Shown: positions 1-31,968 of the stretch, in pieces
Numbering within the stretch: position 1 is the stretch's first letter
Layout: each line of letters begins with the position of its first letter
From: Gemmatimonadaceae bacterium
GTDB taxonomy: Bacteria > Gemmatimonadota > Gemmatimonadetes > Gemmatimonadales > Gemmatimonadaceae
NCBI GenBank assembly: GCA_014377535.1
Contig: JACMPK010000197.1
Location: 1-32,322 of the forward strand
Reading direction: 5' to 3'
Length of the DNA stretch: 32,322 nt
The notes under the pieces: generated by a model
The model's database searches: none
What the model saw: the letters and a program-made list of their open reading frames with translations, nothing else
What the model was told of the DNA's origin: nothing
Position numbers and translations under genes: made by a program

Positions 1-1122
1 GCCGAGGCAACGGTCACCGGCTGGTACGATCCGGCGCGCGGCGTTGGCGGGGTCATCCGCAGGGGATCGGCGAGGTACCTGCCGCGGCCGGGCGACGTGT
101 TCATTCCCGGTTGGCTTGCCCGGCAATTCCAGCTTCGACGAGCGGACCTGATCACGGCCGCCTGGGGCCACGACCAGCGCAAGCGTCCGACGGTCTGCGA
201 GATCACGTCCATCAACGAGATGGCGCCGGATCCGAACGTCCGCCGGAACGAGTTCAAGAGCCTCACGGCGTCCTATCCCAACAAGCGCCTGACGCTCGAG
301 ACCGGTCGGCCGGCGAAGGCGGGACCGGAGATCACGCGCCGCGCGATCGACCTGATTGCCCCGATCGGGTACGGACAGCGTGCGCTGATCGTGGCACCGG
401 CCCGTGCCGGCACGACCACGCTGCTGCAGGCGATCACGGAGGGTGTCCACCTGAACCACCCGGACGCGATTCTCATGCTGCTGCTGGTCGACGAGCGGCC
501 CGAGGAAGTGAGCGAGGCGATTTCATGGGAAGTGGGTGAGGTGATTGCATCGAGCTTCGACCAGCCGGCACAGCGTCATGTGGACGTGACGGAGATCGTC
601 ACGGAGCGTGCGCACCGTCTGGTGGAGCTTGGCAAGGACGTCGTCATCGTGCTGGATTCGATCACGCGCATGGGACGTGCATTCAACACGGCGAACCGGG
701 GCACGGGCCGCACGATGTCGGGCGGCCTGGATGCGAATGCGATGGCGAAGCCGAAGGCGTTCTTCGGTTCGGCTCGCAACGTGGCGCCGGAAGACGGCGG
801 CGGCAGCCTGACGATCATCGCGACCGCACTCGTGGAGACCGGTTCGCGCATGGACGACGTGATCTTCGAAGAGTTCAAGGGCACCGGCAACTGTGAGATC
901 AAGCTCGATCGCGGTCTCGCGGAACGTCGCATCTTTCCTGCAATCGACATCCCCGCGAGCGGAACACGACGTGAGGAAAAGCTCTACAAGCCGGATCAGG
1001 TGCAGTCCATCTACATGCTGCGCCGCGGTCTTCAGCAGATGCCTCCCATGGGCGCAATGGAATGGTTGATCAAGAGAATCGCGGCCACGACCAACAACGA
1101 CGCGTTGCTCGCTGGCCTGTGA
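1..1122 (+). CDS. rho: Transcription termination factor Rho (5'-truncated by window edge), with altered Walker A
   Basis: The frame is open from base 1, so the N-terminus lies outside the window. Rho is a hexameric RNA-dependent ATPase and helicase that terminates transcription in the cytoplasm. Visible: the end of the RNA-binding domain (GDVFIPGWLARQFQLR), then the RecA-like core with the DERPEE catalytic-glutamate motif, Walker B VLDSITR, a Q-loop region ending SGGLDANAM, the R-loop EEFKGTGN and the arginine-finger region, ending close to the usual Rho C-terminus. Family assignment is secure. The odd point is the P-loop: bases 397-420 encode PARAGTTT, where Rho normally has P-P-K/R-A/T-G-K-T. 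The Walker A lysine (E. coli K184) is therefore threonine, codon ACG at 412-414. Either this is a divergent paralogue, a variant still active by other means, or a base error. tamA follows directly. Confidence 0.95.
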   Translation, partial: AEATVTGWYDPARGVGGVIRRGSARYLPRPGDVFIPGWLARQFQLRRADLITAAWGHDQRKRPTVCEITSINEMAPDPNVRRNEFKSLTASYPNKRLTLETGRPAKAGPEITRRAIDLIAPIGYGQRALIVAPARAGTTTLLQAITEGVHLNHPDAILMLLLVDERPEEVSEAISWEVGEVIASSFDQPAQRHVDVTEIVTERAHRLVELGKDVVIVLDSITRMGRAFNTANRGTGRTMSGGLDANAMAKPKAFFGSARNVAPEDGGGSLTIIATALVETGSRMDDVIFEEFKGTGNCEIKLDRGLAERRIFPAIDIPASGTRREEKLYKPDQVQSIYMLRRGLQQMPPMGAMEWLIKRIAATTNNDALLAGL

Positions 1123-1139
1123 ACCTTCGGTTCGCCATC

Positions 1140-3449
1140 ATGTGCAACGCCCGTCGCGCATTCGTCGCGGCGGGCGTTGTACTGCTCGGTTGCGTCGCTG
1201 CCATATCAGCGGACGCGCAGCAGAAGCCATCGCTGACGCGCGTGGTGACGCAGCCGGTGATCAAGGCGCTGAAGGTGAGCGGCAACGCGAAGATCAGCGA
1301 CGACGAACTGAAGGCGGCCATGGAGACGGTGTCGTCGGCGTGCAAGTTCGTGCCGAGGTACTGCACCGTCATTCCACTGGGATTTCTTCGCAACAAGAAG
1401 CGGCTGGATCGTGCCGAGCTCGATCGCGACATGCTCCGGCTGCGCGTGCTGTACTGGAAGCGGGGCTGGCGTGCATCGCAGGTCACGCCAGTGATCGCGA
1501 AGGACGACAACGGGGAAGTGACCATCGAGGTGCGCGTGCAGGAGGGGCCGCCGACCGTCGTCGGCACCCTGGACATCGGCGCCCTCGATTCACTGTTCAG
1601 CAGTCGCGAGAAGCGCGCACTGGTGAGCCTCTCGCCTGGCGATCCGCTCGACCTGATCGAGCTGGACACCATCGCCGTTCGCATCGCCGCCCGGCTCGAT
1701 TCGCGTGGATACGGTGACGTCACGCTGAATCCTGTCGCCGTCGTGGATACGGGCAGTCCGAAGGCCGCGGTGACGCTGGAAGTGAACAAGCTGTACCGCA
1801 CGGTGATCGACTCGGTGCGCGTGGAAGGCACCGAGCGCTACGACCCGCGGCTCGTCGCCAACACGATGGGCGTGAAGAAGGGCACACGATATTCGCGCGA
1901 ACGACTGATCGAGAGCCAGCGTGCGCTGTATGCGGCGGGGTTCTTCCGTCGCGCGGTGGTACGCGTGGAATCCGGCGCGACCGATTCGTTGAAGCGGCTG
2001 ATCGCATCCGTGGAAGAACTGCCGCCGCGCTCGTTCCGCGTGACGGGTGGTGTGAGCACGGTGGACTTCCTGCAGTTCGACGCGCGGTATCTGAATGCGA
2101 ACTTCCGCAACAACGCCGGCCGACTGTCGCTGCAGGCAACCGTGGGCAACCTGCTCGCGCCGCAGTTGGTGGGTGTCGGGCCGTTTCAGAACGTGCTGAA
2201 GAACACGCAGGTGGCGGGCTCACCTCAGTACCTCGAGCCGACATTTCAGCTGAACGCCGATCTGCGTCGCCGCTGGCTCAGCGATTACCGCAACCAGACC
2301 GGTGTCAGTGTGTTCGGTTTCCGGCGGTCATCGCCCGGCGTGTTCATCGAGACGGGTGGCGGTGCGGCAGCGAGCTTCACGCGCAACGTGTCGCCGTACG
2401 TGCCGGTCACGCTGCAGTACCGCATGGAGCTGACGAACACGAGCGCCGCCGACGCGTACTTCTGTGTGAACTTCGGCGTCTGCGACCAGAGTTCGCTGCG
2501 GGTGCTGCAGAGCACGCAGCGCCTCGCACCGCTCGCACTCACGGCCTCGAGCGACCGGCGCGACGATCCGATCGGGCCGACGCGAGGTTATTCCTGGCGT
2601 TCGGAACTGGAGTACGCCAATGCCTGGACCGGCTCGCAGTTCGGCTACGCACGACTCGAGGTGGAAGGGGCCAAGTACTTTCGCATGACGGAGAAGCTCA
2701 CGGTCGCGGTGCACGGACGTGCCGGTGCGGTGACAGGGTTCGGTGGCACCGCGAGCGCGCGACAAGTCGGAGGCAGACCCGTCATCCTGCCGCGCAAGCG
2801 CTTCTATGCCGGCGGCTCGCGCTCCGTGCGCGGCTACGGTGAGAACCAACTCGGGCCGCGCTTTCTCGTGGTTCCGCGGTCGGTGTTCCAGCCGACGCAG
2901 GCCGGCTTCGATTCGCTGCTTGCCGATCCGACGCTGCGCGGCGGGCGACTCCCGTGCGCACCCACGGTCGCGTTACCGGCCTGCCAGACGGATACACTCA
3001 CGGCACCGATCGTGAACGGCCGCCGCACGTCGAACTTCGAGGACAACGACTTCCTGCCCAAGCCACTCGGCGGCGAGGCGATGATCGAAACCTCGATCGA
3101 GGCGCGCAACCATTTCTGGGGGCCGCTCACCGCTGCCGTGTTCATCGATGCCGGATCGGTCGGGGCCCAACTGCGTGGTACCGCCACGGTCTTCACGCCA
3201 GGCATCGGCATACGCTATCTCAGCCCGGTGGGTCCGATTCGCGTGGATCTGGGCTACAACCCACGATCGCGCGAGCAACTCAGCGTGATCACCGAACTCG
3301 ATCCACGTGATGCGTCGTGGGGCGCCACGCGTACCGACGGGTTGTTCGAGATCCGGAACAGGCGTGGCTCCAATCCCGCCACCGGCACCGGTTTCGGCGG
3401 CATCTTCAACCAGCTGACGCTGCACCTCTCCATCGGGGAGGCGTTCTGA
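1140..3449 (+). CDS. tamA: TamA/BamA-family outer-membrane assembly protein
   Basis: Predicted Omp85-family protein of about 769 aa. A signal sequence (residues 1-26) is followed by roughly three POTRA-like modules (about 40-285) and a C-terminal 16-strand-type beta-barrel. The barrel carries the lid-loop motif VRGY (563-566) and ends in phenylalanine, as outer-membrane barrels usually do. With TamB it should form the translocation and assembly module, which inserts outer-membrane proteins or moves lipid between membranes. The immediate tamB neighbour supports TamA over BamA. ATG at 1140 gives a compact signal peptide; an in-frame GTG at 1119 overlaps the rho stop (GTGA) and is a real alternative. 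Neither start has a clear Shine-Dalgarno. The signal region contains both an ADA|QQ signal-peptidase-I site and an LLGC lipobox-like site. The region after VRGY carries a long extracellular-type insertion with two cysteines. Confidence 0.88.
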   Translation: MCNARRAFVAAGVVLLGCVAAISADAQQKPSLTRVVTQPVIKALKVSGNAKISDDELKAAMETVSSACKFVPRYCTVIPLGFLRNKKRLDRAELDRDMLRLRVLYWKRGWRASQVTPVIAKDDNGEVTIEVRVQEGPPTVVGTLDIGALDSLFSSREKRALVSLSPGDPLDLIELDTIAVRIAARLDSRGYGDVTLNPVAVVDTGSPKAAVTLEVNKLYRTVIDSVRVEGTERYDPRLVANTMGVKKGTRYSRERLIESQRALYAAGFFRRAVVRVESGATDSLKRLIASVEELPPRSFRVTGGVSTVDFLQFDARYLNANFRNNAGRLSLQATVGNLLAPQLVGVGPFQNVLKNTQVAGSPQYLEPTFQLNADLRRRWLSDYRNQTGVSVFGFRRSSPGVFIETGGGAAASFTRNVSPYVPVTLQYRMELTNTSAADAYFCVNFGVCDQSSLRVLQSTQRLAPLALTASSDRRDDPIGPTRGYSWRSELEYANAWTGSQFGYARLEVEGAKYFRMTEKLTVAVHGRAGAVTGFGGTASARQVGGRPVILPRKRFYAGGSRSVRGYGENQLGPRFLVVPRSVFQPTQAGFDSLLADPTLRGGRLPCAPTVALPACQTDTLTAPIVNGRRTSNFEDNDFLPKPLGGEAMIETSIEARNHFWGPLTAAVFIDAGSVGAQLRGTATVFTPGIGIRYLSPVGPIRVDLGYNPRSREQLSVITELDPRDASWGATRTDGLFEIRNRRGSNPATGTGFGGIFNQLTLHLSIGEAF
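3435..3441 (+). promoter_or_regulatory. Ribosome binding site for tamB (supports CTG start)
   Basis: GGGGAGG lies inside the last codons of tamA, four bases before a CTG at 3446. It is one of the few strong Shine-Dalgarno sequences in the window, and no ATG, GTG or TTG in the tamB frame is placed to use it. Confidence 0.6.
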
Positions 3450-6400
3450 AGAAGGCGAAGATCGCGAAGCTGACCGCGGCGTTCGCCGGCAGCGCGCTGC
3501 TGCTCGCCGTCGCGGCGGTGGTGTACCTGCCGACGACGGCGTGGGGCAACGAGAAGGTCCGCGGGATGATCGAGCGGGCGCTGAACAAGCAGTTCGCCGG
3601 CAAGGTCAGCATCGGCAAGCTCGAGCTGCCGGCGTTCTCGCGCGCGACGATTCACGATGTCGTGATCACCGATTCTGCGGGTTCGCCGTTCCTGAAAGTG
3701 CCGTTGCTGAAGGCGCGCTGGTCGGTCGGCGACCTGTGGAGCCGGCGCGTGATCCTCGACGATGTGCGCGCCGAGCGCGCCGAGATCGTGTTGAATCGTC
3801 TGCCGGGCAGGCGGTGGAACTGGGATGCGATCCTCTTCCCCGACACCACGAAGCGGGCGCGTGCCGCCGGCCCGCAGTTCGGCGACTGGGTGGAGCTGAA
3901 GCACGTGACGTTGATCGACGCGCGCATCGAGGCGCGGAGTCCGTACACGGTGGAAGCGTGGCGTCCCGAGCGGCAGCGCGATTCACTGCTGGCGCTGGCA
4001 CTGGCCGGCAAGCTGCGCCCTGTCGTGATCACGGTGCCGGGTGGGCAGCAGCGTGTCACGATTCTCGAACACGTGACGCTCAGCGCGCCGTATGCCCGCA
4101 TCAAATATCCGGGCGAAACGGCGCAGAAGTTCGAGATCGCGCGTGGCCACGCCATCGTGAAGCCGTTTCATCCACCGGCACTCGACTTGCGCGATGTGAA
4201 GGGCACGGTGTTCGTGGACAAGGACAGTATCTGGTTCCGCGACATCGCCGCACGACTGCCGAGGTCACGCGCCACGATGGAGGGGCAGTACAACATCAAC
4301 AGCGGCAACACGCGCCTTGTGGCGAAGGCGCCAGAGTTGATCACCGACGACTGGCTCTGGCTGGTGCCGACGCTGCCGAAGGGTGCGACCGGCCGCATCA
4401 CCGATGTGCGCTACGTGCTGAACGGGACGTCAAGCGACATCCGCCTTGCCGGCATGGCGCTGGCCCTCGAGACGGCGCGTCTGGACGGCACCGCCGACTT
4501 CGGATTCGACAAGGACGACACGCGCTTCAACGACGTGAACATCCGGTTGACGAATCTCGACACGCGGACGCTCGGGCGTGCGATGCCCGACGTCGAGATT
4601 CCGCGCTCCGGTGTGCTGAACGGCACGCTGCTCGCGAAGGGCGCGCTGGAACGCTCGAGCATCGATGGCAGCTTCCGTTTTGCCGATCGTGAGGCGGGAC
4701 CGCTGGCCGTGCGCATGCGCGGGCAGGCAGGCTTCAGCCGCGGCGCGCTGGAGACGCGCAACCTGCGCCTCGACATTGCACCCGCACCCGTCACGCTCGC
4801 CAGCGAAGCATTGCAGCCGCTTGGCGGGCGTATCGGCGGCGTGGTGACGGTGAGTGGCCGCACCGATGGCTGGCTCGACACTCGCATGGCGCTCGCGCAT
4901 TCGGTTGCCGGCCTCCAGTCGCGGATCAACGGGACGGCGCGCGTGAACATCGCCGGCGCCGAACCGCGCTTCGACGCACGCCTGGCCTTCGCACCGCTCA
5001 ACCTGCGTGCAATGGGCCGCTTCGCGCCGGCGCTCGACCTGCGGGGCAACGCGACTGGTACGCTGACGCTGCGTGGCGTGGCATCGGACATGGCGGTGAA
5101 CAGCGTCATCCGGGTCGATACGGCCGGCGCGGTGCAGGTGACGGGGCGCTTCGGCGTGCCGGCCCGCGGGCCCTCGTTTGCCAACGTGCAGCTCACCGTC
5201 GACTCGCTCGACCTGCAGCGCCTTGTACCGACAGCGCTCAAGACGACCCTCGTCGGCATCGCGCAGGTGAACCTGCGCGGCACATCGGTCGCGGATCTCG
5301 ACGGCACGATGGTCGTGGACCTGCGTGCCTCCGACGTCGACCGCGTGCGTGTCGACACGGTTGCGCTGGTGGCCGAGGCGCACGACGGGCTGCTGCAACT
5401 CGACACGCTGCTGTTGCGCATCGGCGGAACACAGGGCGGCGGACATGGAACCTTCGGCCTCCGTGACGGCCAGCGGGGCACGCTGACTGTGGCCATCGAG
5501 ATCGACTCGTTGCAGCGGCTTCGTCCCTACCTGCCCGGTGATACCGCGCAGGTCGCACTGACACAGGCGGCGATTGCGCGGTCGTTGCGCCGTCAGCGCG
5601 CTGATTCCGTCGCACTGGCTCGCCGCACGGAGGTGGAACGTGCCGCACGCGGACTCGCACCGCTCGCACTGCGCGTCACGGCACCTGGACCGGTGCGCGG
5701 CGACTCGCTGGCGGGCCGCGTCACGTTGCGCCTCACGCTCGATGGCTGGCTGCGTGACATCAGCGGCCGCGGCGCGGTGGACGGCACTGACCTGTTCTTC
5801 AATGGCAGCAGCGTGCTGCGCCTGTCACTGATGCCGGTGTGGAACCACCTGCTCACCGACAGCTCGAGCGCGCGCGTGACCGGCGATGCCGATGCGATCA
5901 GCGTTGGCGGCTACAACGTGGATTCCCTGCGCATCGCCGCAGGGTACAACTGGCGCCGCAACACCCTGGCCACCGGCACCGGCGACCTGAACATCGACGT
6001 GCACCTGATCGACAGCACGGGCATCGCCCTGCGCGGCGCGCTGGTCCTCGATGCCGCGCGATACCAGGCTCGCGTCGACAGCACGTCGCTGGTGCTGCGA
6101 TCGTCGCAGTGGAACAGTCCGTATGCGTGGCGCGCGTCGTGGGCGCAGGGCAAGCTGGTGGTGGACTCGCTCGCACTCGAGGCGCAGGGCAGCGATGCCC
6201 GCCTGCAGGTGGATGCCGCGGTGGATACGGCCGGCTCCACCAACGTCACGCTCGCCATCCGGAATACCCGGCTCGCCGACCTCGCCGATCTGGCGCAGTC
6301 GGTGTCACCGGTGGACGGCCGCGTGTCAGCCGACTTGTACGTGGACGGACCGGCTGCGAATCCGAAGATCACCTTCCTCGGCGCAGTCCGTGACGTGGTA

Positions 6401-8077
6401 TACGACAGCCTGCCGCTGCCGGAGTTCCGCGCGCGCATGAACTACGCTGACCGCAAGGCCGTGGCGTACGCCGAAGTGCGTCGTGCGGGGCAGCAGCCGA
6501 ACGCACGGGCCGATGCGACCATTCCGGTTGATCTTGCACTCAGCGGCAGTCCGAAGCGCCTGCTCGATCTGCCCATGGTGGCCGACATCCGGCTCGACTC
6601 GCTGCCGCTCGACATCATCCCGCAACTGAGCCCGTCGATCACCAACGTGAAGGGCCAGACGGTGGGCCGCGTGCAGGTGCGCGGTACGCTGCCCGACAAG
6701 CTGCGGTTCGACGGCACCATGCGCCTGCGCAACGGTGAAGCCTACGTCGTCGACGCTGATCTGCCGCTGCGTGACATGTCCGCCGACATGCAGTTCAAGG
6801 GTGATTCGCTGGTGGTGGATTCGGTGCACGTGCGCAGCGGCGACGGCACCATCCGCACCAGCGGTGGCGTATCGCTCGCCACGCTGAGCGACCCGGTGTT
6901 CGATCTCGCACTCGTCGCGCGGAATGCACGCGTGCTCGACGGCAAGAAGGGGCGCATCCGCATCCTCGCAGACATGACGATGAAGGGACCGTATACCGCC
7001 ACTACGGTGGAAGGCAGCGTGCGTGTGCGCGACGGTGTGTACCGCCTGGAGAACGAGCGTCGGGCCACGCAGGTCTTGAGCGCGAACGATCCGGCGGTCC
7101 TTGGTGCGGTGGACAGCACGCAGGCGTTCGAACGGGGACTCATCGCCCCGCCGTCGCCGTTCGTGCGCGGCCTCAAGACACAGATCGCCGCCCGCATCGA
7201 CCGTGACATGTGGGTGCGGAGCGCCGAGGCGAACGTCGAGGTGTTCACCGACGGTGAACTCGCGGTGGCACTCAGTCCGGAGACCGGCGCCGTCACGCTG
7301 GACGGCATCGTCGCCACCGAACGCGGTCAGTACGAGTTCCTCGGCAAACGATTCAACATCGTGCGCGGCTCGGCGACGTTCATCGGCACCTCGGACCTGA
7401 ACCCGCTGCTGCAGGCCATCGCCGAAGTGCAGGTGCGGCAGGCCTCGCAGGGGGCACTGGCCATCCGCCTGAACATCGGTGGCACGCTGCTGCGCCCACG
7501 CCTCTCGCTGGAGAGCGATGCGCAGCCACCGATCCCGCAGACGGACCTCATCAGTTATCTCGCCTTCGGCAATACCAGTGGATCGCTGCTGTCGCAGTCC
7601 GGCTCAGGCAACTCGGGAGCGACCAGCGGCGGTTCCCTGGTGGGCAGCACCGCGGCAGCCGTGAACCGGTTCTTTTCCGCCACCGCGCTCGGCGCGTTGC
7701 TGAATGGTGCGGAGGGCAACCTGGCACGGGTGCTGGGCGCCGATGTGCTGAACATCACCGCCAACGGCACCGCCCCTGAAGTGCAGAACCTCTTCACCGG
7801 GTTCAGCGGCTTCCTGCTCGCGACGGAGCTGGAGTACGGCCGCTACTTCGGCACGCGGAACTACACGGCCATCACGCTGACACCGGCCAACTTCGCGCCG
7901 ACGCAGGGCAACATCTCGCCGATCGGCGTGCGCTGGGAGTATCGCCTGCCTCGCAATTACCGGCTCGAGACGACGTTTGGTCCGCGCTTCCTGCTCACCA
8001 GCCAGACGCTCGACACGAATGCGCCGAACGCCTTCCAGAACCTCGGCCTGTTCCTCTCGCGCGAGTGGAAGTGGTGA
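3446..8077 (+). CDS. tamB: TamB-family inner-membrane-anchored translocation protein (DUF490)
   Basis: Very large protein, about 1543 aa, in the normal TamB size range. An N-terminal basic stretch and one membrane helix (about residues 9-28) anchor it in the inner membrane. A long AsmA-like, repeat-rich beta region spans the periplasm. The C-terminal DUF490/TamB domain includes the characteristic stretch RPRLSLESDAQPPIPQ followed by TDLISYLAFG near residues 1355-1380. The protein ends EWKW. It should pair with TamA to bridge the two membranes. The start is inferred as CTG at 3446: it overlaps the tamA stop as CTGA, has a strong GGGGAGG upstream, and the protein then begins MKKAKIAKL, a sensible signal anchor. 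The frame is open further upstream (ATG at 3317), but that would add arginine- and histidine-rich residues encoded inside tamA. Function certain at family level; start likely. Confidence 0.9.
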   Translation: MKKAKIAKLTAAFAGSALLLAVAAVVYLPTTAWGNEKVRGMIERALNKQFAGKVSIGKLELPAFSRATIHDVVITDSAGSPFLKVPLLKARWSVGDLWSRRVILDDVRAERAEIVLNRLPGRRWNWDAILFPDTTKRARAAGPQFGDWVELKHVTLIDARIEARSPYTVEAWRPERQRDSLLALALAGKLRPVVITVPGGQQRVTILEHVTLSAPYARIKYPGETAQKFEIARGHAIVKPFHPPALDLRDVKGTVFVDKDSIWFRDIAARLPRSRATMEGQYNINSGNTRLVAKAPELITDDWLWLVPTLPKGATGRITDVRYVLNGTSSDIRLAGMALALETARLDGTADFGFDKDDTRFNDVNIRLTNLDTRTLGRAMPDVEIPRSGVLNGTLLAKGALERSSIDGSFRFADREAGPLAVRMRGQAGFSRGALETRNLRLDIAPAPVTLASEALQPLGGRIGGVVTVSGRTDGWLDTRMALAHSVAGLQSRINGTARVNIAGAEPRFDARLAFAPLNLRAMGRFAPALDLRGNATGTLTLRGVASDMAVNSVIRVDTAGAVQVTGRFGVPARGPSFANVQLTVDSLDLQRLVPTALKTTLVGIAQVNLRGTSVADLDGTMVVDLRASDVDRVRVDTVALVAEAHDGLLQLDTLLLRIGGTQGGGHGTFGLRDGQRGTLTVAIEIDSLQRLRPYLPGDTAQVALTQAAIARSLRRQRADSVALARRTEVERAARGLAPLALRVTAPGPVRGDSLAGRVTLRLTLDGWLRDISGRGAVDGTDLFFNGSSVLRLSLMPVWNHLLTDSSSARVTGDADAISVGGYNVDSLRIAAGYNWRRNTLATGTGDLNIDVHLIDSTGIALRGALVLDAARYQARVDSTSLVLRSSQWNSPYAWRASWAQGKLVVDSLALEAQGSDARLQVDAAVDTAGSTNVTLAIRNTRLADLADLAQSVSPVDGRVSADLYVDGPAANPKITFLGAVRDVVYDSLPLPEFRARMNYADRKAVAYAEVRRAGQQPNARADATIPVDLALSGSPKRLLDLPMVADIRLDSLPLDIIPQLSPSITNVKGQTVGRVQVRGTLPDKLRFDGTMRLRNGEAYVVDADLPLRDMSADMQFKGDSLVVDSVHVRSGDGTIRTSGGVSLATLSDPVFDLALVARNARVLDGKKGRIRILADMTMKGPYTATTVEGSVRVRDGVYRLENERRATQVLSANDPAVLGAVDSTQAFERGLIAPPSPFVRGLKTQIAARIDRDMWVRSAEANVEVFTDGELAVALSPETGAVTLDGIVATERGQYEFLGKRFNIVRGSATFIGTSDLNPLLQAIAEVQVRQASQGALAIRLNIGGTLLRPRLSLESDAQPPIPQTDLISYLAFGNTSGSLLSQSGSGNSGATSGGSLVGSTAAAVNRFFSATALGALLNGAEGNLARVLGADVLNITANGTAPEVQNLFTGFSGFLLATELEYGRYFGTRNYTAITLTPANFAPTQGNISPIGVRWEYRLPRNYRLETTFGPRFLLTSQTLDTNAPNAFQNLGLFLSREWKW

Positions 8078-15337: not shown

Positions 15338-15490
15338 GCTGTTGCTGTCATGCGAAGTCGAGGCCGAGGTCCAGGGTCGGCGCAATGCTTTTACCGTTCC
15401 TCCGCGGCTCCGCGCCTCCGTGTGAGAGGAGTTGCTGTCGCTGTCGCTGTTGCTGTCAGGCGAAATCGAGGCCGAGGTCCAGGGCCGGGG
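15293..15490. repeat. Imperfect tandem duplication including the 3' end of nadC
   Basis: Copy A (15293-15382) and copy B (15389-15490) share, in order, TTTTACCG, a CTCCGC-rich palindrome arm, a GCTGTC/T hexamer run, TCA, and about 33 bases encoding the nadC C-terminus. In copy B the TCA is the real nadC stop (15456-15458). In copy A the same layout encodes, on the minus strand, [12 protein letters not shown] and then a stop (15348-15350), compared with the real tail [10 protein letters not shown]. Offset is 96 bases before the hexamer run and 108 after it, so the copies differ by exactly two hexamers. Confidence 0.8.
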
Positions 15491-16331
15491 CGGAGTGCGT
15501 GAGGGCGCCCACGCTGATCCAGTCCACGCCCGTCTCCGCGATCGAGCGCACGCGATCGAGGGTCACGCCGCCGCTCGCCTCGACGATCGCGCGGCCCGCG
15601 ACGAGCTGCACGCACGTGCGCATCATGTCGAGCGACATGTTGTCGAGCATGATCACGTTGGCGCCTGACTCGATTGCGCGTTCGACCTGCTCGATGCGGT
15701 CCGTCTCGACTTCGACCCACGTGTCGTCCGGCATCGTTGCGCGGACCGCAGCGACTGCGGCCACGATGTCACCGCCGACGGCTGCGAGATGATTGTCCTT
15801 GAGCATCGCCATGGCTGACAGATCCATGCGGTGATTGCGTCCGCGGCCGCATCGTACGGCGTACTTCTCGAGGTGGCGCAATCCCGGGGTCGTCTTGCGC
15901 GTGTCGAGGATTCTCGCGCTGGTGCCGGCAATCGCCTGCACGTACCGGTGCGTCAGCGACGCAACACCAGAGAGATGCATCATGTAGTTCAGTGCGACGC
16001 GCTCCGCCTGCAACAGCGCGCGTGACGGGCCGGTGATGCGCAACACGACATCGCCGGGTTCGACGATCGAGCCGTCGGCGCGAACCGTTTCGGTTCGCAC
16101 CGACGGCGAGACCTGACGGAATGCTTCCGCGGCAAGTGGGCCACCGCAGATCACGCCATGCGTGCGCGCCACCAGCACCGCCGACGACACCGCCGCTGCG
16201 GGAATCGTGGCGAGCGTCGTGATGTCCTCGAAAGCGCGGTCCTCGAACAGCGCGTCGCGCACGGCGGTACGGAGTGGGATCTCGCGGAACGGGAACGAGA
16301 ACGGATCGACGACAACCAACTCGGCGCTCAT
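15456..16331 (-). CDS. nadC: Nicotinate-nucleotide pyrophosphorylase (carboxylating), quinolinate phosphoribosyltransferase
   Basis: Enzyme of 291 aa that converts quinolinate and PRPP to nicotinate mononucleotide with loss of CO2, the last dedicated step of de novo NAD synthesis. Family residues are visible: EDITT near 35-39, [10 protein letters not shown], the ER-VALN segment (110-115), DTRKTTPG (143-150), the [11 protein letters not shown] segment (161-171), KDNH (178-181), ETD, MLDNM, EASGG and a final [13 protein letters not shown] barrel strand. Length is typical. ATG at 16331 overlaps the nadA stop by four bases (ATGA), which indicates translational coupling at the end of the nrtR-nadB-nadA-nadC operon. 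The frame is open further upstream, but those residues are a shadow of nadA. The last dozen codons are duplicated just downstream. Confidence 0.96.
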
Positions 16332-17344
16332 TCGCCGGGATCGTCGCTCTGGCCCGCGATCGGCGACGACGGCTGCGTGCCGCCGATGGCCACCATGCGG
16401 TCGATCGCCAGCTTTGCGCGCGCCGCGATGGCGGGGGGCACGGTGATGCGATGCTCCATGTGCTGCAACGCACGCAGCACCTTTGGCAGCGTCGTGACCT
16501 TCATGTATGCGCAGCTCGCCTTGTCGTTCGCGGCATGAAACACCTTGGTCGGGTTCTCGCCGCGCAGCCGGTGCAGGATGCCGATCTCCGTCGCGACGAT
16601 GAACTCGGTCGCGGAGCTCTCGGCTGGACGCCGGATCATGCCCTCGGTGCTGAGTATCTGCAGCTGCCGGCTGGAAACCGCACCGCTGGACACCGCATCC
16701 AGGACGCTCGTCGAGCAGCCGCATTCCGGATGCACGAGGAATTCCGCCTCGGGATGCGCCGCGCGCATGTGGTTGATGTGCTCCGGATCGATGCCGGCAT
16801 GCACATGACATTCCCCCATCCAGATCACGATGTTCTCGCGACCCGTGATGCGCTTCACGTGCGCACCAAGGAACATGTCCGGGCAGAAGAGAATCGTCCG
16901 GTCGGCGGGGATGGCCTGGATCACCTCGACCGCGTTGCCGGAGGTGCAGCAGTAGTCCGTCTCCGCCTTCACCTCGGCTGTGGTGTTCACGTAGCTGACC
17001 ACGACCGCGTCCGGATACTCCGCCTTCCATGCGCGCAGCTGGTCGGCGTTGATCGTCGATGCGAGCGAGCAGCCGGCGGCAAGGTCGGGCAGCAGCACCG
17101 TCTTCTGCGGGGACAGGATCGCGGCCGTCTCGGCCATGAAGTGCACGCCGCAGAACACGATCACGTCCGCATCGGTGCGCGCAGCCTCGCGCGACAAGCC
17201 CAGCGAGTCGCCGACATAGTCAGCGACATCCTGGATCTCGGGCCGCTCGTAGTTATGCGCCAGGATCACCGCGTTTCTCGCCTTCGCGAGCGCGCGGATC
17301 TCCACGTGCAGCGCCGTGTCGTAGTTCGTCTCCAGCACCGTCAT
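16328..17344 (-). CDS. nadA: Quinolinate synthase A
   Basis: [4Fe-4S] enzyme of 338 aa that condenses iminoaspartate (from NadB) with dihydroxyacetone phosphate to make quinolinate. The cluster cysteines fit C65 (FCGVHFMAE), C133 (YCCTSGNA) and C208 (HPECGC). The substrate-binding signatures [31 protein letters not shown] and [10 protein letters not shown] are present. The frame is open 37 codons further upstream, but ATG 17344 has a good ribosome site (17350-17356) and matches the family N-terminus. It sits seven bases after the nadB stop and overlaps nadC by four. Confidence 0.96.
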
Positions 17345-17349
17345 GCCGT

Positions 17350-17356
17350 CCTCACC
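17350..17356 (-). promoter_or_regulatory. Ribosome binding site for nadA
   Basis: On the minus strand GGTGAGG ends five bases before the nadA ATG and contains the nadB stop codon TGA. It decides the nadA start and suggests termination-reinitiation coupling with nadB. Confidence 0.6.
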
Positions 17357-18866
17357 ATTCGATGTGCGTTTCGCGCCACTTCCGCTTGGCGCGCGGGAAG
17401 TCGCTGCGGAAATGTCCGCCTCGACTCTCCTTCCGTAGCAGCGAGGCCTGCGCAATCATGCGCGCCGTCTGCACCATGTTCAGTTCTTCCGTCGCGCCCT
17501 CGGGCAACCTCCGCTCGATTGCGTCGATCTCGCGCACCGCGATACGCAGGCCGCGCGCCGTGCGATCGATGCCGGCGTACTGCCACATCACGCGGCGCAC
17601 GTCGTCGGCTGCAACCTGTGCGGCACCGCGGTCGGCGAGTTCCGGCACATCCCACGCCTCACGCGTCGGTGCCGCGATGCCGTGCTTCTTCAGGCTCGCG
17701 ACGTCACGCGAGACTCGCTCCGCAAACACCAGTCCTTCCAGCAGCGAGTTCGACGCAAGGCGGTTGGCACCATGCACGCCGGTGCATGCGACTTCACCAC
17801 AGGCATACATCCCCGGTACCGTCGTCCGGCCATCCAGATCCGTCACGATGCCGCCCATCATGTAATGCGCCGCGGGCGTGACGGGAATCAGGTCGCTGCG
17901 CGGGCCCACGCCGCGTGCCGTGCACAGGCGGAAGATGCCGGGGAAGCGTGTCTCGAAGCCCGGGAGCATGCGCGCGTCGAGATGCACGACGCCGGTGCGT
18001 TCCTGCGCGCGGAAGATCTCGCGCGCCACGATGTCACGCGGTGCGAGCTCGGCCTGCCGGTGCTTTTCGGGCATGAATCGCTTGCCGGTGCCATCGAGCA
18101 GCGTCGCACCCTCGCCGCGCACCGCCTCACTGACCAGCGCGAGCGGATTCTCGCTCGTGGCGAGCGCCGTCGGGTGAAATTGCACGAACTCCATGTCGGC
18201 CATGCGTGCGCCGGCACGGTGCGCAATCGCATACCCGTCACCCGTCGCCACGGTCGGGTTGGTGGTGTGCCGGAACACCTGCCCCAGTCCGCCCGTCGCC
18301 ATCACGACGGCCTCTCCATACACCTCGGCCGCACGCCCCTCGATGGAGACGCGCACACCGATGCAGCGGCCGTTGACGATGATGAGGTCGAGCACGCGCG
18401 CGGTCTCGAGCACCTGCACATTCGGCGACGACTGTACGCGCTCGATCAGCGTGCGTGACACCTCGGCGCCGGTCTGGTCGCCCTGCGCGTGCACGATGCG
18501 GCGACGCGAGTGCGCGGCTTCCTTGCCGAGCTTGAAGTCGCCGCGTGCGTTGAGGTCGAAGCGCGCACCGGCTTCCACGAGTTCGCGCACGCGGTCCGGG
18601 CCCTCGTTCACCAACACATCCACCGCGTTCACGTCGCAGAGTGCCGCGCCGGCGGCAAGCGTGTCACGCCGATGCAGCTCCGGACTGTCACCGGCGCCCA
18701 GTGCCGCGGCAATGCCGCCTTGCGCCCACATCGTGTTGGAATCGCGGAGCGTGCGCTTGGTCATCAGCAGCACCGGTCCCTGCGCTGCGCACCGCCATGC
18801 AGTGAAGAGTCCGGCGACGCCGCTGCCGATGACGATGATACGCGTGTGAAGCCGTTCGACGGTCAT
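17352..18866 (-). CDS. nadB: L-aspartate oxidase
   Basis: FAD enzyme of 504 aa that oxidises L-aspartate to iminoaspartate, first step of the bacterial de novo NAD pathway. An N-terminal Rossmann motif IGSGVAG (13-19) is followed by the flavin-contact segment [38 protein letters not shown], the catalytic-region [19 protein letters not shown] and the flavin/substrate segment [19 protein letters not shown]. The C-terminal helical domain typical of aspartate oxidase and fumarate reductase flavoproteins is complete. The aspartate oxidase assignment, rather than SdhA/FrdA, is supported by this motif set and the nadA-nadC neighbours. ATG at 18866 overlaps the nrtR stop by four bases (ATGA). Confidence 0.96.
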
Positions 18867-19636
18867 CGCGTGCCCTCGCCCGGCGTAATCTGAATGACAC
18901 GACCGCGGCGCCGGAGCACGGGGCTGATGCGGGCGAGCTGCACGGCTGGCTGTGTGGACATGAGCGGCTCCGGCGCGCCGATCGCCTCGGGGGCTTCGAT
19001 GGCCACGAAGCGATACAACTGCGCCGGTCGACCCGTGCCGCTGACCCGCTGCTCGCGCGTCGGCTTCACGATGCCCAGCAGCTCGACCTTTCGACGGAAA
19101 TTGCGCTTGTCCATATCGCGGCCGATGATCACTTCGTAGACGCGCTGCAGATCGCCCAGCGTAAAGCGGGCCGGGAGCAGCTGAAAGCCGACGGTGGTGT
19201 AGGCGAGCTTGTTACGCAGTCGGGTCAACGCGTAATCGATGATGCGGCGGTGATCCAGGACCAGCAGCGGCAGCGTCGCGACCGGCCACCAGCGGGCGGC
19301 ATCGCTGCCTGTTGCCGTGAGCACGTCGGCAGAGACGAGCGCGTAGTGCGCCACCGAGATGATGCGCGAGTCCGGCGCGCGGTGCACGTCGCCGAAGGTG
19401 TAGAGCTGCTCCAGCCAGACGTCACCGGAGCCTGCGACGTCGGCGAGTGCTCGACGGGCCGTGGTGTCAACCGTTTCGTCAGCCCGGACGGTGTCGTTGG
19501 GCAGGCCCCACGCGGCAGCGGCGGGGGCGAGGAGGACGTGGAGGGCGTCGTCCCGGATGGTGAACACGACAACTTCAACGCCAACCTGGATCGCGGTGGT
19601 CTCATGTTGCGGTCCGGGTCGGTTAGTGTCGGGCAT
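18863..19636 (-). CDS. nrtR: NrtR-type Nudix-related repressor of NAD biosynthesis
   Basis: Regulator of 257 aa. The N-terminal half is a Nudix fold that senses an NAD-related ligand (ADP-ribose in characterised NrtR proteins). The C-terminal half is a winged helix. NrtR hallmarks are clear: LEQLYTFGDVHR (75-86), RNKLAYTTVGFQLLP (141-155), FTLGDLQRVYEVIIGR, DMDKRNFRRK and GRPAQLYRF. The Nudix box is degenerate: the REUxEE core reads RALADV, so the catalytic glutamates are missing and a sensor role without hydrolysis is expected. A tail of about 45 residues after the winged helix is longer than I would expect. It heads the nadBAC operon and probably represses it and itself through the palindrome at 19637-19653. 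Start ATG 19636; a promoter directly upstream suggests a leaderless mRNA. Confidence 0.93.
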   Translation of the reverse strand: MPDTNRPGPQHETTAIQVGVEVVVFTIRDDALHVLLAPAAAAWGLPNDTVRADETVDTTARRALADVAGSGDVWLEQLYTFGDVHRAPDSRIISVAHYALVSADVLTATGSDAARWWPVATLPLLVLDHRRIIDYALTRLRNKLAYTTVGFQLLPARFTLGDLQRVYEVIIGRDMDKRNFRRKVELLGIVKPTREQRVSGTGRPAQLYRFVAIEAPEAIGAPEPLMSTQPAVQLARISPVLRRRGRVIQITPGEGTR

Positions 19637-19653
19637 ACACTAGAGGATAGTGT
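19624..19653. promoter_or_regulatory. Candidate NrtR operator
   Basis: ACACTA (19637-19642) and TAGTGT (19648-19653) form a perfect 6-base inverted repeat with a 5-base centre. A further TAGTGT at 19624-19629 makes a third half-site, alternating in direction. The main palindrome overlaps the proposed nrtR -10 box and abuts the start codon, the expected place for an autorepressor site. The link to NrtR is inferred from position. Confidence 0.65.
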
Positions 19654-19672
19654 AGGGCGCACACAAAGGCAA
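19644..19672 (-). promoter_or_regulatory. Promoter of the nrtR-nadBAC operon (probably leaderless)
   Basis: On the minus strand TTGCCT (19672-19667) and TATCCT (19649-19644) are spaced 17 bases. Seven bases separate the -10 box from the nrtR ATG, so transcription should begin at or next to the start codon. The -10 lies within the palindrome. Confidence 0.55.
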
Positions 19673-19810
19673 CGGAGTCAGACCATCGGTCCTGCGGCAC
19701 CTGCAGCGAATACACATGCAGTGGTGACCGCGGACCTGAGTGCGGCACGCCGCATCCATTCGTCGCTTTCGCTTGCCGCACCCATCCGCGCTGGCGACCT
19801 TTCGCGGTTC

Positions 19811-20856
19811 ATGCGCCCCCTCATCACCGCCTTGATCGTTCTCGCCCTCGTCCATGGCGGTCTGTTGTTCGTGCAGCCGACCAACGCGCCTGCGGCGGAG
19901 CTGGCCGGCGACGGCCCGCAGGTCGGCGTGGTGTTCGATCTGGGCGGGCGCGGCGACAAATCGTTCAACGACGGCGCCTATCTGGGTGCCGAGAGCGCCG
20001 CGAAGAAATTGCAGGCGCGGGTCCAGTTCATCGAGCCCGGTGACGGCTCCGACCGCGGGGCCGGCCTCCGCCTGCTGGCCGCTGAACGGCGTGCGCTGGT
20101 GGTCGGGGTGGGCTTCATCTTCACTGATGACCTGATCGAGCTCGCGAAGGAATATCCCGATGTGAACTTCGCGGGCGTGGACTTCGCCGTCGGTACCGAC
20201 AAATTCGGCGACCCGATTCCACCGCCGCCGAATGTTGCGGCGCTCAAGTTCCGCGAGGAAGAGGGGTCGTTCCTGGTCGGCGCGCTGGCGGCGCTGGTCG
20301 GCGGCTCGAAGAAGGTCGGCTTTTTGGGCGGCATGGACATGCCCCTGATCCACAAGGACGAGGCCGGCTACCGGGCGGGTGTGATGCATGTGTGCAAGGA
20401 TTGCACGGTGATCGCGCAGTACGCCGGCGTGACGCCCGAGGCGTTCCGCAACCCGAGCAAGGGCAAGGAGCTGGCGCTGAGCCAGTATCAGCAGGGCGTG
20501 AACGTGATCTTCCACGCCAGCGGCTCCACCGGGCTCGGGATGTTCGAGGCGGCGAGAGCGATGGGTCGTGGCCATTACGGCATCGGCGTGGACGCCGACC
20601 AGTACGGCGAGGCGCCGGGCTATGTGCTGACGTCCATGGTGAAGGGCGTCGACAACGTGGTGTACGACACGATTCGCCGCGTGAAGGATGGCACGTTTCA
20701 GGGTGGCATCTTTTCCTATGGTCTGAAGGAGAAGGGTGTCGGCTATGTCTACGACGCGCGCAACAGGGCGCTGATTCCCGACAGTGTGCGCGCCCGCCTA
20801 CTGGACATCGAGCGTGACATCGTGGCGGGCAGGATCAGAGTGCCGAGCACGCGCTC

Positions 20857-20860
<4 letters not shown>
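19811..20860 (+). CDS. BMP-family nucleoside-type ABC transporter substrate-binding protein
   Basis: Protein of 349 aa in the BMP/PnrA-like (Med) family, whose studied members bind purine or other nucleosides for ABC import. After an N-terminal hydrophobic segment (about 4-20), the mature region starts VGVVFDLGGRGDKSFND, the family's signature, followed by ANFAGVDF-like and GFLGGMDMPLIHKDEAGYRAG segments and IGVDADQYGEAPGYVLTS near the ligand cleft. The unusual point is the absence of a cysteine after the signal region. BMP proteins are usually lipoproteins, so this one may be freely periplasmic or membrane-anchored. ATG 19811 is the only start that gives a sensible signal sequence; the frame is open far upstream, but that part is a shadow of nrtR and its promoter. 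The end overlaps the ATPase start by four bases (GTGA). Confidence 0.9.
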
Positions 20861-30597: not shown

Positions 30598-30765
30598 CGC
30601 ATCCGGGCAGGGGTGAACGCACCTGAAAATCTCACCCGGCAGCGCGGGGCGCACCAGTCGATGCGTGCGAGCCAGGCGTCATCTCACCGGCCCACCTGCC
30701 GCCGCAGGCGTCGGGGCGCTCATTTGTGATAACTCTTCATACCGACCACTTCAGCACCAGCCGTC

Positions 30766-31968
30766 ATGTCGCGTCACCTCGCCGCCGTCTTCGTGCTCCT
30801 CATCGCTCCCGGAACCGCCCTGCTTGCCCAGCCGGGCAGCGGCAATCGGAGCACCAGCATTCGGGCAGGCGAGGCGTGCCCTGCCGGCATGACCGAGGTG
30901 CGTCCGCAAAACTGTCAGGCGCCAACGTTGCCTCCGCCCAGCATCGTGGACTATCGGCCGCGCTCCACGCTGGTGGCGCCGGCGCATCCGGTGTCGAAGG
31001 CGAAGTTCCCTGCCATCGACTTTCATGGGCATCCGTATTCGCAGCTCAATTCCGATGCTTCGCTGACCGAATTGGGAACGCAGCTGGACGCGCTCAACGT
31101 GCGGGTGATCGTGGCCGCCAACAACGTGTCCGGACCCGACTTGGTGCGGCAGATGACGCTGATCCGCGCCTCGGCCACCATGAAGGACCGGGTGCGGATC
31201 CTAGCCGGCGTGAACTTCAGCGGCGTGGGTCCCGGGTGGGCCGAAAAGGCCGTGGCGCAGCTCGAGGCGGATGTGGCAGCGGGTGCCGTGGGCATCGGCG
31301 AGATCGGCAAGGGGCTCGGGCTTTCCACGCGCAAGGCTGACGGCTCACGCCTGCAGATCGACGATCCGGCGCTGACGCCGATCTGGGACGCCGCCGCCCG
31401 ACTGAAGCTGCCGGTCTTCATCCACACGGCCGATCCGCAGGAGTTCTGGCAGCCCATCGACAACACGAACGAGCGGTGGCTTGAGCTCGCGCTCTTCCCG
31501 GGACGGCGGTATCCCGCGGACCAGTTCCCGTCATTCGAGACGCTGATGACGGAGCGCGACAATGTGCTGCGCCGCAATCCGAAGACGACGTTCGTGGTGG
31601 CCCACCTGGGCTGGCACGCCAATGATCTGGGCCGGCTGAGCAGGATGATGGATGCGATGCCGAACGTGCACGCCGAAGTCGGTGCGGTGCTGTACGACAT
31701 CGGTCGCCAGCCGCGCGCGGCGCATGATTTCTTCGTGCGCTACCAGGACCGCATCCTCTTCGGCAAGGACTCGTTCCAGCCGGAAGAGTATCCCTACTAC
31801 TGGCGCGTGTTCGAGACGCGCGACGACTATTTCGACTACTACCGCGACTATCACGCGTCGTGGAAGCTCTACGGCATCGACCTGCCGGATGCGGTGCTGA
31901 AAAAGGTGTATTTCGGCAATGCACTGCGGATCACGTCGCGACTGCTGCAGGGCGGATGGCCGCGATGA
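30766..31968 (+). CDS. Secreted amidohydrolase-family (TIM-barrel) metal-dependent hydrolase
   Basis: Exported 400-aa protein. A signal peptide (residues 1-21, ending LLAQ) is followed by a linker with two cysteines (C38, C50) that could form a disulfide. The catalytic domain has features of the amidohydrolase-2 (ACMSD-like) family: the metal-binding HxH in IDFHGHP (H87, H89), then GEIGKGLGL, FIHTADPQEF, VAHLGWHAND and a late FGKDSF aspartate. These fit a metal-dependent hydrolase or decarboxylase; substrate is unknown and the export makes a cytosolic ACMSD role unlikely. ATG 30766 has no clear ribosome site. It is divergent from the kinase gene, and the 168-base interval between them shows no convincing promoter or operator. 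Its stop directly abuts the stop of the GNAT gene. Confidence 0.88.
   Translation: MSRHLAAVFVLLIAPGTALLAQPGSGNRSTSIRAGEACPAGMTEVRPQNCQAPTLPPPSIVDYRPRSTLVAPAHPVSKAKFPAIDFHGHPYSQLNSDASLTELGTQLDALNVRVIVAANNVSGPDLVRQMTLIRASATMKDRVRILAGVNFSGVGPGWAEKAVAQLEADVAAGAVGIGEIGKGLGLSTRKADGSRLQIDDPALTPIWDAAARLKLPVFIHTADPQEFWQPIDNTNERWLELALFPGRRYPADQFPSFETLMTERDNVLRRNPKTTFVVAHLGWHANDLGRLSRMMDAMPNVHAEVGAVLYDIGRQPRAAHDFFVRYQDRILFGKDSFQPEEYPYYWRVFETRDDYFDYYRDYHASWKLYGIDLPDAVLKKVYFGNALRITSRLLQGGWPR

Follow-up and report, generated by a model that had tools for sequence, protein, structure and literature searches.

Comparative sequence analysis predicts that tamB in this member of the Gemmatimonadaceae is very likely translated from a CTG codon at position 3446, which overlaps the stop codon of tamA and lies four bases behind a strong Shine-Dalgarno (SD) sequence. 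The window, the whole stretch of 32,322 nucleotides that was analyzed, is part of genome G000, and its genus is represented in our collection by three genomes (G000, G001, and G002). A sequence-only reading of the window had proposed this start overlapping the tamA stop, and the proposal is supported by the presence of the same SD-CTGA arrangement in all three genomes and by the lack of a canonical start nearby. A CTG start of this sort is unusual but is a known kind of start and not a new mechanism. In E. coli, CUG is reported to initiate at 0.86% of the AUG level, and among bacterial starts it accounts for 0.024% (PMC11497404, which cites earlier work); the description of such starts as rare in that reading holds. 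No report of a CTG start for tamB was found among the titles and abstract openings returned by searches of the open-access literature. If the prediction is right, a gene caller limited to ATG, GTG, and TTG must mis-start TamB, making it either 43 codons too long or devoid of its membrane anchor.

Anatomy of the tamA-tamB junction

The features referred to below are the following, in window coordinates.

1062..3449, plus strand: tamA, an Omp85/POTRA outer-membrane protein with the C-terminus SIGEAF followed by the stop (Pfam Omp85 1.3e-31, POTRA 4.9e-23)
3317..3319, plus strand: GTG, the nearest in-frame canonical codon upstream, 43 codons before the CTG; rejected as a start
3435..3441, plus strand: Shine-Dalgarno GGGGAGG, read from the sequence, within the tamA codons GGG GAG GCG
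3442..3445, plus strand: spacer CGTT, read from the sequence, 4 nt to the CTG and 7 nt to the ATG/GTG position of most relatives
3446..3448, plus strand: proposed tamB start codon CTG, in phase with the tamB frame
3446..8077, plus strand: tamB, 1543 aa from the CTG (Pfam TamB 2.9e-42)
3447..3449, plus strand: tamA stop TGA, read from the sequence, sharing TG with the CTG to give CTGA at 3446-3449, a -4 nt overlap
3449..3451, plus strand: AAG, at the ATG/GTG start position of most relatives; ACG in G001
3473..3529, plus strand: hydrophobic core of the TamB signal anchor, residues 10-28 from the CTG, with a 19-residue Kyte-Doolittle mean of 2.11

Read directly, positions 3435-3454 are GGGGAGG CGTT CTGA AGAAG, which confirms the placement of GGGGAGG four bases before a CTG that overlaps the tamA TGA. 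Stop and start overlap on one strand as CTGA, and NTGA is reported to be, by a wide margin, the most frequent spacing among genes that lie close together (PMC12548453). The SD stands at a working distance, with its 4-nt spacer, in all three genus genomes, which have the SD-CTGA block ATCGGGGAGGCGTTCTGA in common. A sequencing or assembly error was rejected on the agreement of three separate genomes. By Pfam and hydropathy, the two genes make up a TAM pair, in which an Omp85 and POTRA protein precedes a TamB-domain protein anchored at its N-terminus. The tamA start, ATG 1062, aligns with an ATG in G001, and the DUF748 and AsmA profiles of Pfam, each scoring under its curated cut-off, match CTG-started TamB from residues 4-5.

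It had also been stated that no ATG, GTG, or TTG lies nearby, which is right: the nearest in frame are GTG 3317, 43 codons upstream, and GTG 3518 and 3521 (codons 25 and 26), 24 codons downstream and inside the membrane anchor. The upstream stop of the tamB frame in G001 is at -144, and the first in-frame ATG, GTG, or TTG after it comes only at codon 23, inside the hydrophobic segment, leaving this genome with no usable canonical codon in frame. From 20 codons upstream to 5 downstream, the CTG is the sole start-like codon at an equal offset in all three genomes, barring codons 2 (AAG, AAG, and ACG in G000, G002, and G001) and 5 (AAG/AGG). Downstream of the CTG, start-like codons at common ungapped offsets fall at codons 2, 5, and 6, which are AAG, ACG, AGG, or ATC, and at codons 19 and 26, which are inside the anchor.

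Junctions across the family and the origin of the CTG

We searched 179 family genomes with the N-terminal part of TamB, and 176 gave some match. Orthologous loci of the tamB-1 type were chosen in 65 (the best match per genome, omitting genomes with only the second type and contigs missing the junction), and two of these, G202 and G209, have no readable tamA end, leaving 63 junctions that were counted and whose start classes were obtained by re-sorting the script output on reading the rows. At 58 of the 63, an ATG, GTG, or TTG is found at or soon after the tamA stop, divided into 49 ATG, 8 GTG, and 1 with TTG only (G104); counted among the 49 are G006, with its ATG at +15, and G042 and G105, where an ATG comes immediately after a TTG. 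The five junctions with none of these codons are those of the three genus genomes and of one clade of two, G005 and G203. An ATG or GTG stands three bases past the equivalent of the CTG in 42 of the 63 (34 TGATG, 2 TAATG, and 6 TAGTG), a tally made up of 34 ATG and 6 GTG from the script, with G042 and G105 added by reading the rows.

Conservation of the CTG might be offered as proof of its use, and we rejected it as such. CTGA is present in 40 of the 63 junctions as a consequence of TamA ending in TTC or TAC before a TGA stop, and a CTG that is supplied by the last codon of TamA and its stop is not independent of tamA; its conservation in three of three genus genomes, where the triplet is forced by tamA, therefore proves little, and most relatives beyond the genus have a canonical start next to the CTG. 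The comparison with relatives that the sequence-only reading had proposed shows CTG in all three members of the genus and, in the rest of the family, most often an ATG start three bases downstream.

In 32 of the 63 junctions, a CTG lies in frame directly before the ATG, and this together with CTGA in 40 makes it very likely that the CTG stood in frame before the genus lost its downstream ATG. The commonest start in the family is this ATG, one codon on (SD...TTC TGATG), with the CTG already in frame before it. In the genus, the ATG position would then have become AAG or ACG, a loss that we infer from the relatives, and initiation probably fell back onto the adjacent, pre-existing CTG. Since the commonest start of the relatives is an ATG three bases downstream, the start position seems to have shifted, rather than an ATG having turned into a CTG. 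The switches tallied by Belinky et al. resemble tamB in having a weak start with a strong SD, but their AUG to CUG switches, 2 of 61,358, occur in place (PMC5622118), whereas the tamB start has apparently moved one codon upstream to a CTG that already existed. The junction looks like a natural case of a start sliding one codon onto a CTG supplied by its neighbor, with relatives available for comparison. A synonymous TTC to TTT change would be enough to produce a far better TTG, yet it is in none of the three genus genomes, which counts against the CTG start.

In a tree of TamA C-termini covering 62 of the 63 junction genomes, the three genus genomes form a single clade (100/98) whose sister is G028 (100/100), and G028 has a plain ATG start (TAG GCGC ATG). 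TGATG is the majority form in the family and not a proven ancestor, and the state at the node shared with G028 is not certain. The six genomes without ATG or GTG need three changes on this tree, with G104 on a long branch of unsure placement. At the G104 junction (L086; TTTTGACG), a TTG overlaps the stop exactly at the position of the window's CTG and the usual ATG position is ACG, which is possibly a parallel start shift; a GTG lies further downstream. The G005 and G203 junctions (L014 and L076) belong to a second clade without ATG or GTG, whose relatives G205 and G218 have TAATG, and they carry an in-frame TTG at -14 inside the last tamA codons, with no obvious SD in the bases before it.

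If a ribosome terminating on tamA were simply handed over to tamB, and codon identity were of minor importance, then initiation could have stayed at the relatives' position, now AAG (ACG in G001). This position has an SD spacing of 7 nt and carries ATG or GTG in the 42 junctions above, and reinitiation at gene overlaps is documented (PMC6728339, PMC10666635). Against this, the CTG immediately upstream is the better codon and its spacer is workable. AAG also ranks with the weakest of the single-mismatch start codons, and we consider a start there unlikely.

Canonical starts, fusion, and decay as alternatives to the CTG

Begun at the CTG, TamB has the N-terminus (M)KKAKIAKLTAAFAGSALLLAVAAVVYLP, basic and then hydrophobic, and the hydrophobic segment near this end, with its mean of 2.11, bears out the clean signal anchor that had been claimed for a CTG start. 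A start at GTG 3518 or 3521 would instead give a protein without this N-terminal anchor. Both codons are canonical, and the GTG at codon 26 is shared by G000 and G001 and that at codon 25 by G000 and G002, but a start there would cut the hydrophobic segment, dropping the best 19-residue mean from 2.1 to 0.04-0.12 (0.04 for TamB windows from codon 25 onward), and would place the conserved motif about 8 residues from the start, where the family median is 32. Counted from the CTG, the distance to that motif is 33, 34, and 33 aa in G000, G001, and G002; at 51 of the 60 junctions outside the genus, the other 9 having no value, the median of 32 comes with a range of 31-67. Initiation at either of these GTG codons is very unlikely.

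GTG 3317 would begin tamB inside tamA and add 43 residues. It is in frame, and G002 has an ATG at the equal offset, but G001 has no such codon and no SD is found in the 16 bases before it. The changes between G000 and G002 in this region follow the phase of tamA and not that of tamB: over the 600 bases upstream of the CTG, they number 91, 24, and 14 at tamB positions 1, 2, and 3, which is the tamA codon phase, and over the 600 bases downstream they number 35, 20, and 72, which is the tamB phase. We regard this upstream GTG as a most improbable start. A TamA-TamB fusion made by -1 ribosomal frameshifting close to the tamA stop is scarcely credible: tamB does lie in the -1 frame across the junction, but no slippery heptamer is seen in GGGGAGGCGTTCTGA, relatives use all three frame relations between tamA and tamB at the junction, and a fusion would presumably bury the C-terminal residue of the barrel and join an outer- to an inner-membrane protein.

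The genus also has a second, divergent tamA-tamB pair (G000:C228:4314-8780; L002, L003, and L091), found in G001 and G002 as well, in which tamB starts at an ordinary ATG, four bases beyond the stop of tamA. That this copy has taken over, the start of the first tamB having been lost and the gene now decaying, has next to no likelihood, since the first tamB has a frame open over 1542-1543 codons in all three genomes and dN/dS of 0.106, 0.31, and 0.265 in the three genus pairs, values that indicate that it is under purifying selection and therefore maintained. A pseudogene was rejected on the intact frame together with a whole-gene dN/dS well below 1. Over the first 60 codons, dN/dS is 0.22, 1.13, and 0.44, and the value of 1.13, from G000-G001, implies that the TamB N-terminus is loosely conserved.

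Ribosome binding, coupling, and the expected yield of TamB

SD duplex energies were computed from the 19 bases before each junction against the E. coli-type 16S tail, which was taken as the anti-SD because the Rfam model gave no 16S 3' end in the three genus genomes. A CCUCC anti-SD core is reported for Gemmatimonadetes (PMC10783764). With the E. coli-type anti-SD, the energy is -11.0 kcal/mol in all three genus genomes, tied for strongest of the 63, while the other 60 junctions have a median of -6.4 kcal/mol, two of them (G010 and G017, both with ATG) equal -11.0, and TTG-only G104 comes next at -7.7 kcal/mol. GGAGG occurs in five of the 63 junctions, three of them in this genus, and is absent from the ATG-less junctions of G005 and G203; given this absence and the equal SDs of ATG-bearing G010 and G017, SD strength is not simply tied to the loss of ATG. 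GUG and UUG starts tend to accompany strong SDs (PMC5622118). The strong SD of the genus would fit compensation for the weak CTG, a correspondence that is suggestive only, since the genus amounts to one evolutionary event.

Predicted local RNA folding at the junction is stronger in the genus (-21.1 to -26.5) than the median of the 63 (-17.8), and folding of that predicted strength would hinder initiation. Over the 10 tamA codons nearest the stop that keep their amino acid, the three genus pairs have 0, 1, and 1 synonymous differences, where the background in tamA is 41, 36, and 40%; tamA windows equally low in synonymous change number 9/411, 34/326, and 2/332, and the apparent suppression of synonymous change at the tamA end is a modest signal. 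The CTG alone is not beyond chance; the strong SD together with the absence of another usable start is.

In the mechanism that we infer, GGGGAGG inside the last tamA codons would place the ribosome at CTG 3446, which initiator tRNA would read as fMet, with this SD-directed initiation possibly aided by reinitiation of the ribosome finishing tamA. The strong SD, perhaps together with termination-reinitiation across the CTGA overlap, would compensate for the weak codon, and translational coupling of TamA and TamB is plausible from this arrangement. The sequence-only reading had expected a fixed TamA:TamB ratio, which is unsupported: CUG at 0.86% of AUG in E. coli (PMC11497404) points to low TamB. 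Because CUG is reported at about 1% of AUG there, a low yield is the default expectation, with TamB probably made at less than 1:1 with TamA, and the second tamA-tamB pair with its ATG may make such a yield tolerable. A broader proposal, which we put forward tentatively and with some doubt, is that start codon identity is relaxed at a stop-start overlap. If a strong SD retains the terminating ribosome, it could restart on a near-cognate codon; loss of the ATG would then lead to the CTG supplied by the upstream aromatic residue, and TamB would be set low relative to TamA. The tamB junction offers a test of whether a strong SD and a stop-start overlap make weak start codons tolerable.

The low efficiency and rarity of CUG count against the proposed start, and so do two published cases: a mycobacterial reporter selection showed no enrichment of CTG at the leadered position (PMC4633059), and a Caulobacter dnaA leader CUG with an SD gave a toeprint in vitro and is unused in vivo (PMC8443254). 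Other systems offer partial likenesses. Streptomyces sigR resembles tamB in pairing a strong SD with a conserved rare start, which is GTC in 32 of 34 species, but it is the upstream gene of its coupled pair, and its start is experimentally shown and IF3-repressed (PMC5472188), whereas tamB is a downstream gene whose predicted CTG start overlaps a stop. The AUU and AUC starts of infC are likewise non-canonical, but infC is autoregulated by IF3 (PMC5472188), and no such logic is known for tamB. NTGA-coupled pairs (PMC12548453, PMC10666635) are of the same spacing class as tamA-tamB, with stop and start sharing TG; the former source treats NTGA in general and the latter ATGA and GTGA, and the CTGA of tamA-tamB is named in the available text of neither.

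IF3 is encoded in all three genus genomes. Their infC genes (L095:1240, L097:1240, and L098:788 in G000, G001, and G002) have a candidate ATC or ATT start behind GGAG and eight bases in all three copies, arranged as in classic infC autoregulation, and a rival start, a GTG seven codons further on, is common to all three; G002 has a second infC match (L096). If the ATC/ATT start is right, ordinary IF3 discrimination would act in the genus.

A comparison of the open reading frames of the window with those of G001 gave 18 alignment rows, two of them pieces of one ORF, and two genes, in which the first aligned pair of canonical codons fell within the alignment, were examined closely, the others being judged from the table of rows. 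In G000 and in G001 alike, these two, at 17352-19211 on the minus strand and 18839-20860 on the plus strand, carry an ATG close to where conservation begins. For the frame at 30733-31968, the first aligned pair of canonical starts in G000 and G001 is at codon 53. A single minus-strand open frame at 15456-17219 in G000 corresponds to two distinct frames in G001; the two genomes may differ in frame here, or the frame may be an antisense one that is open by chance.
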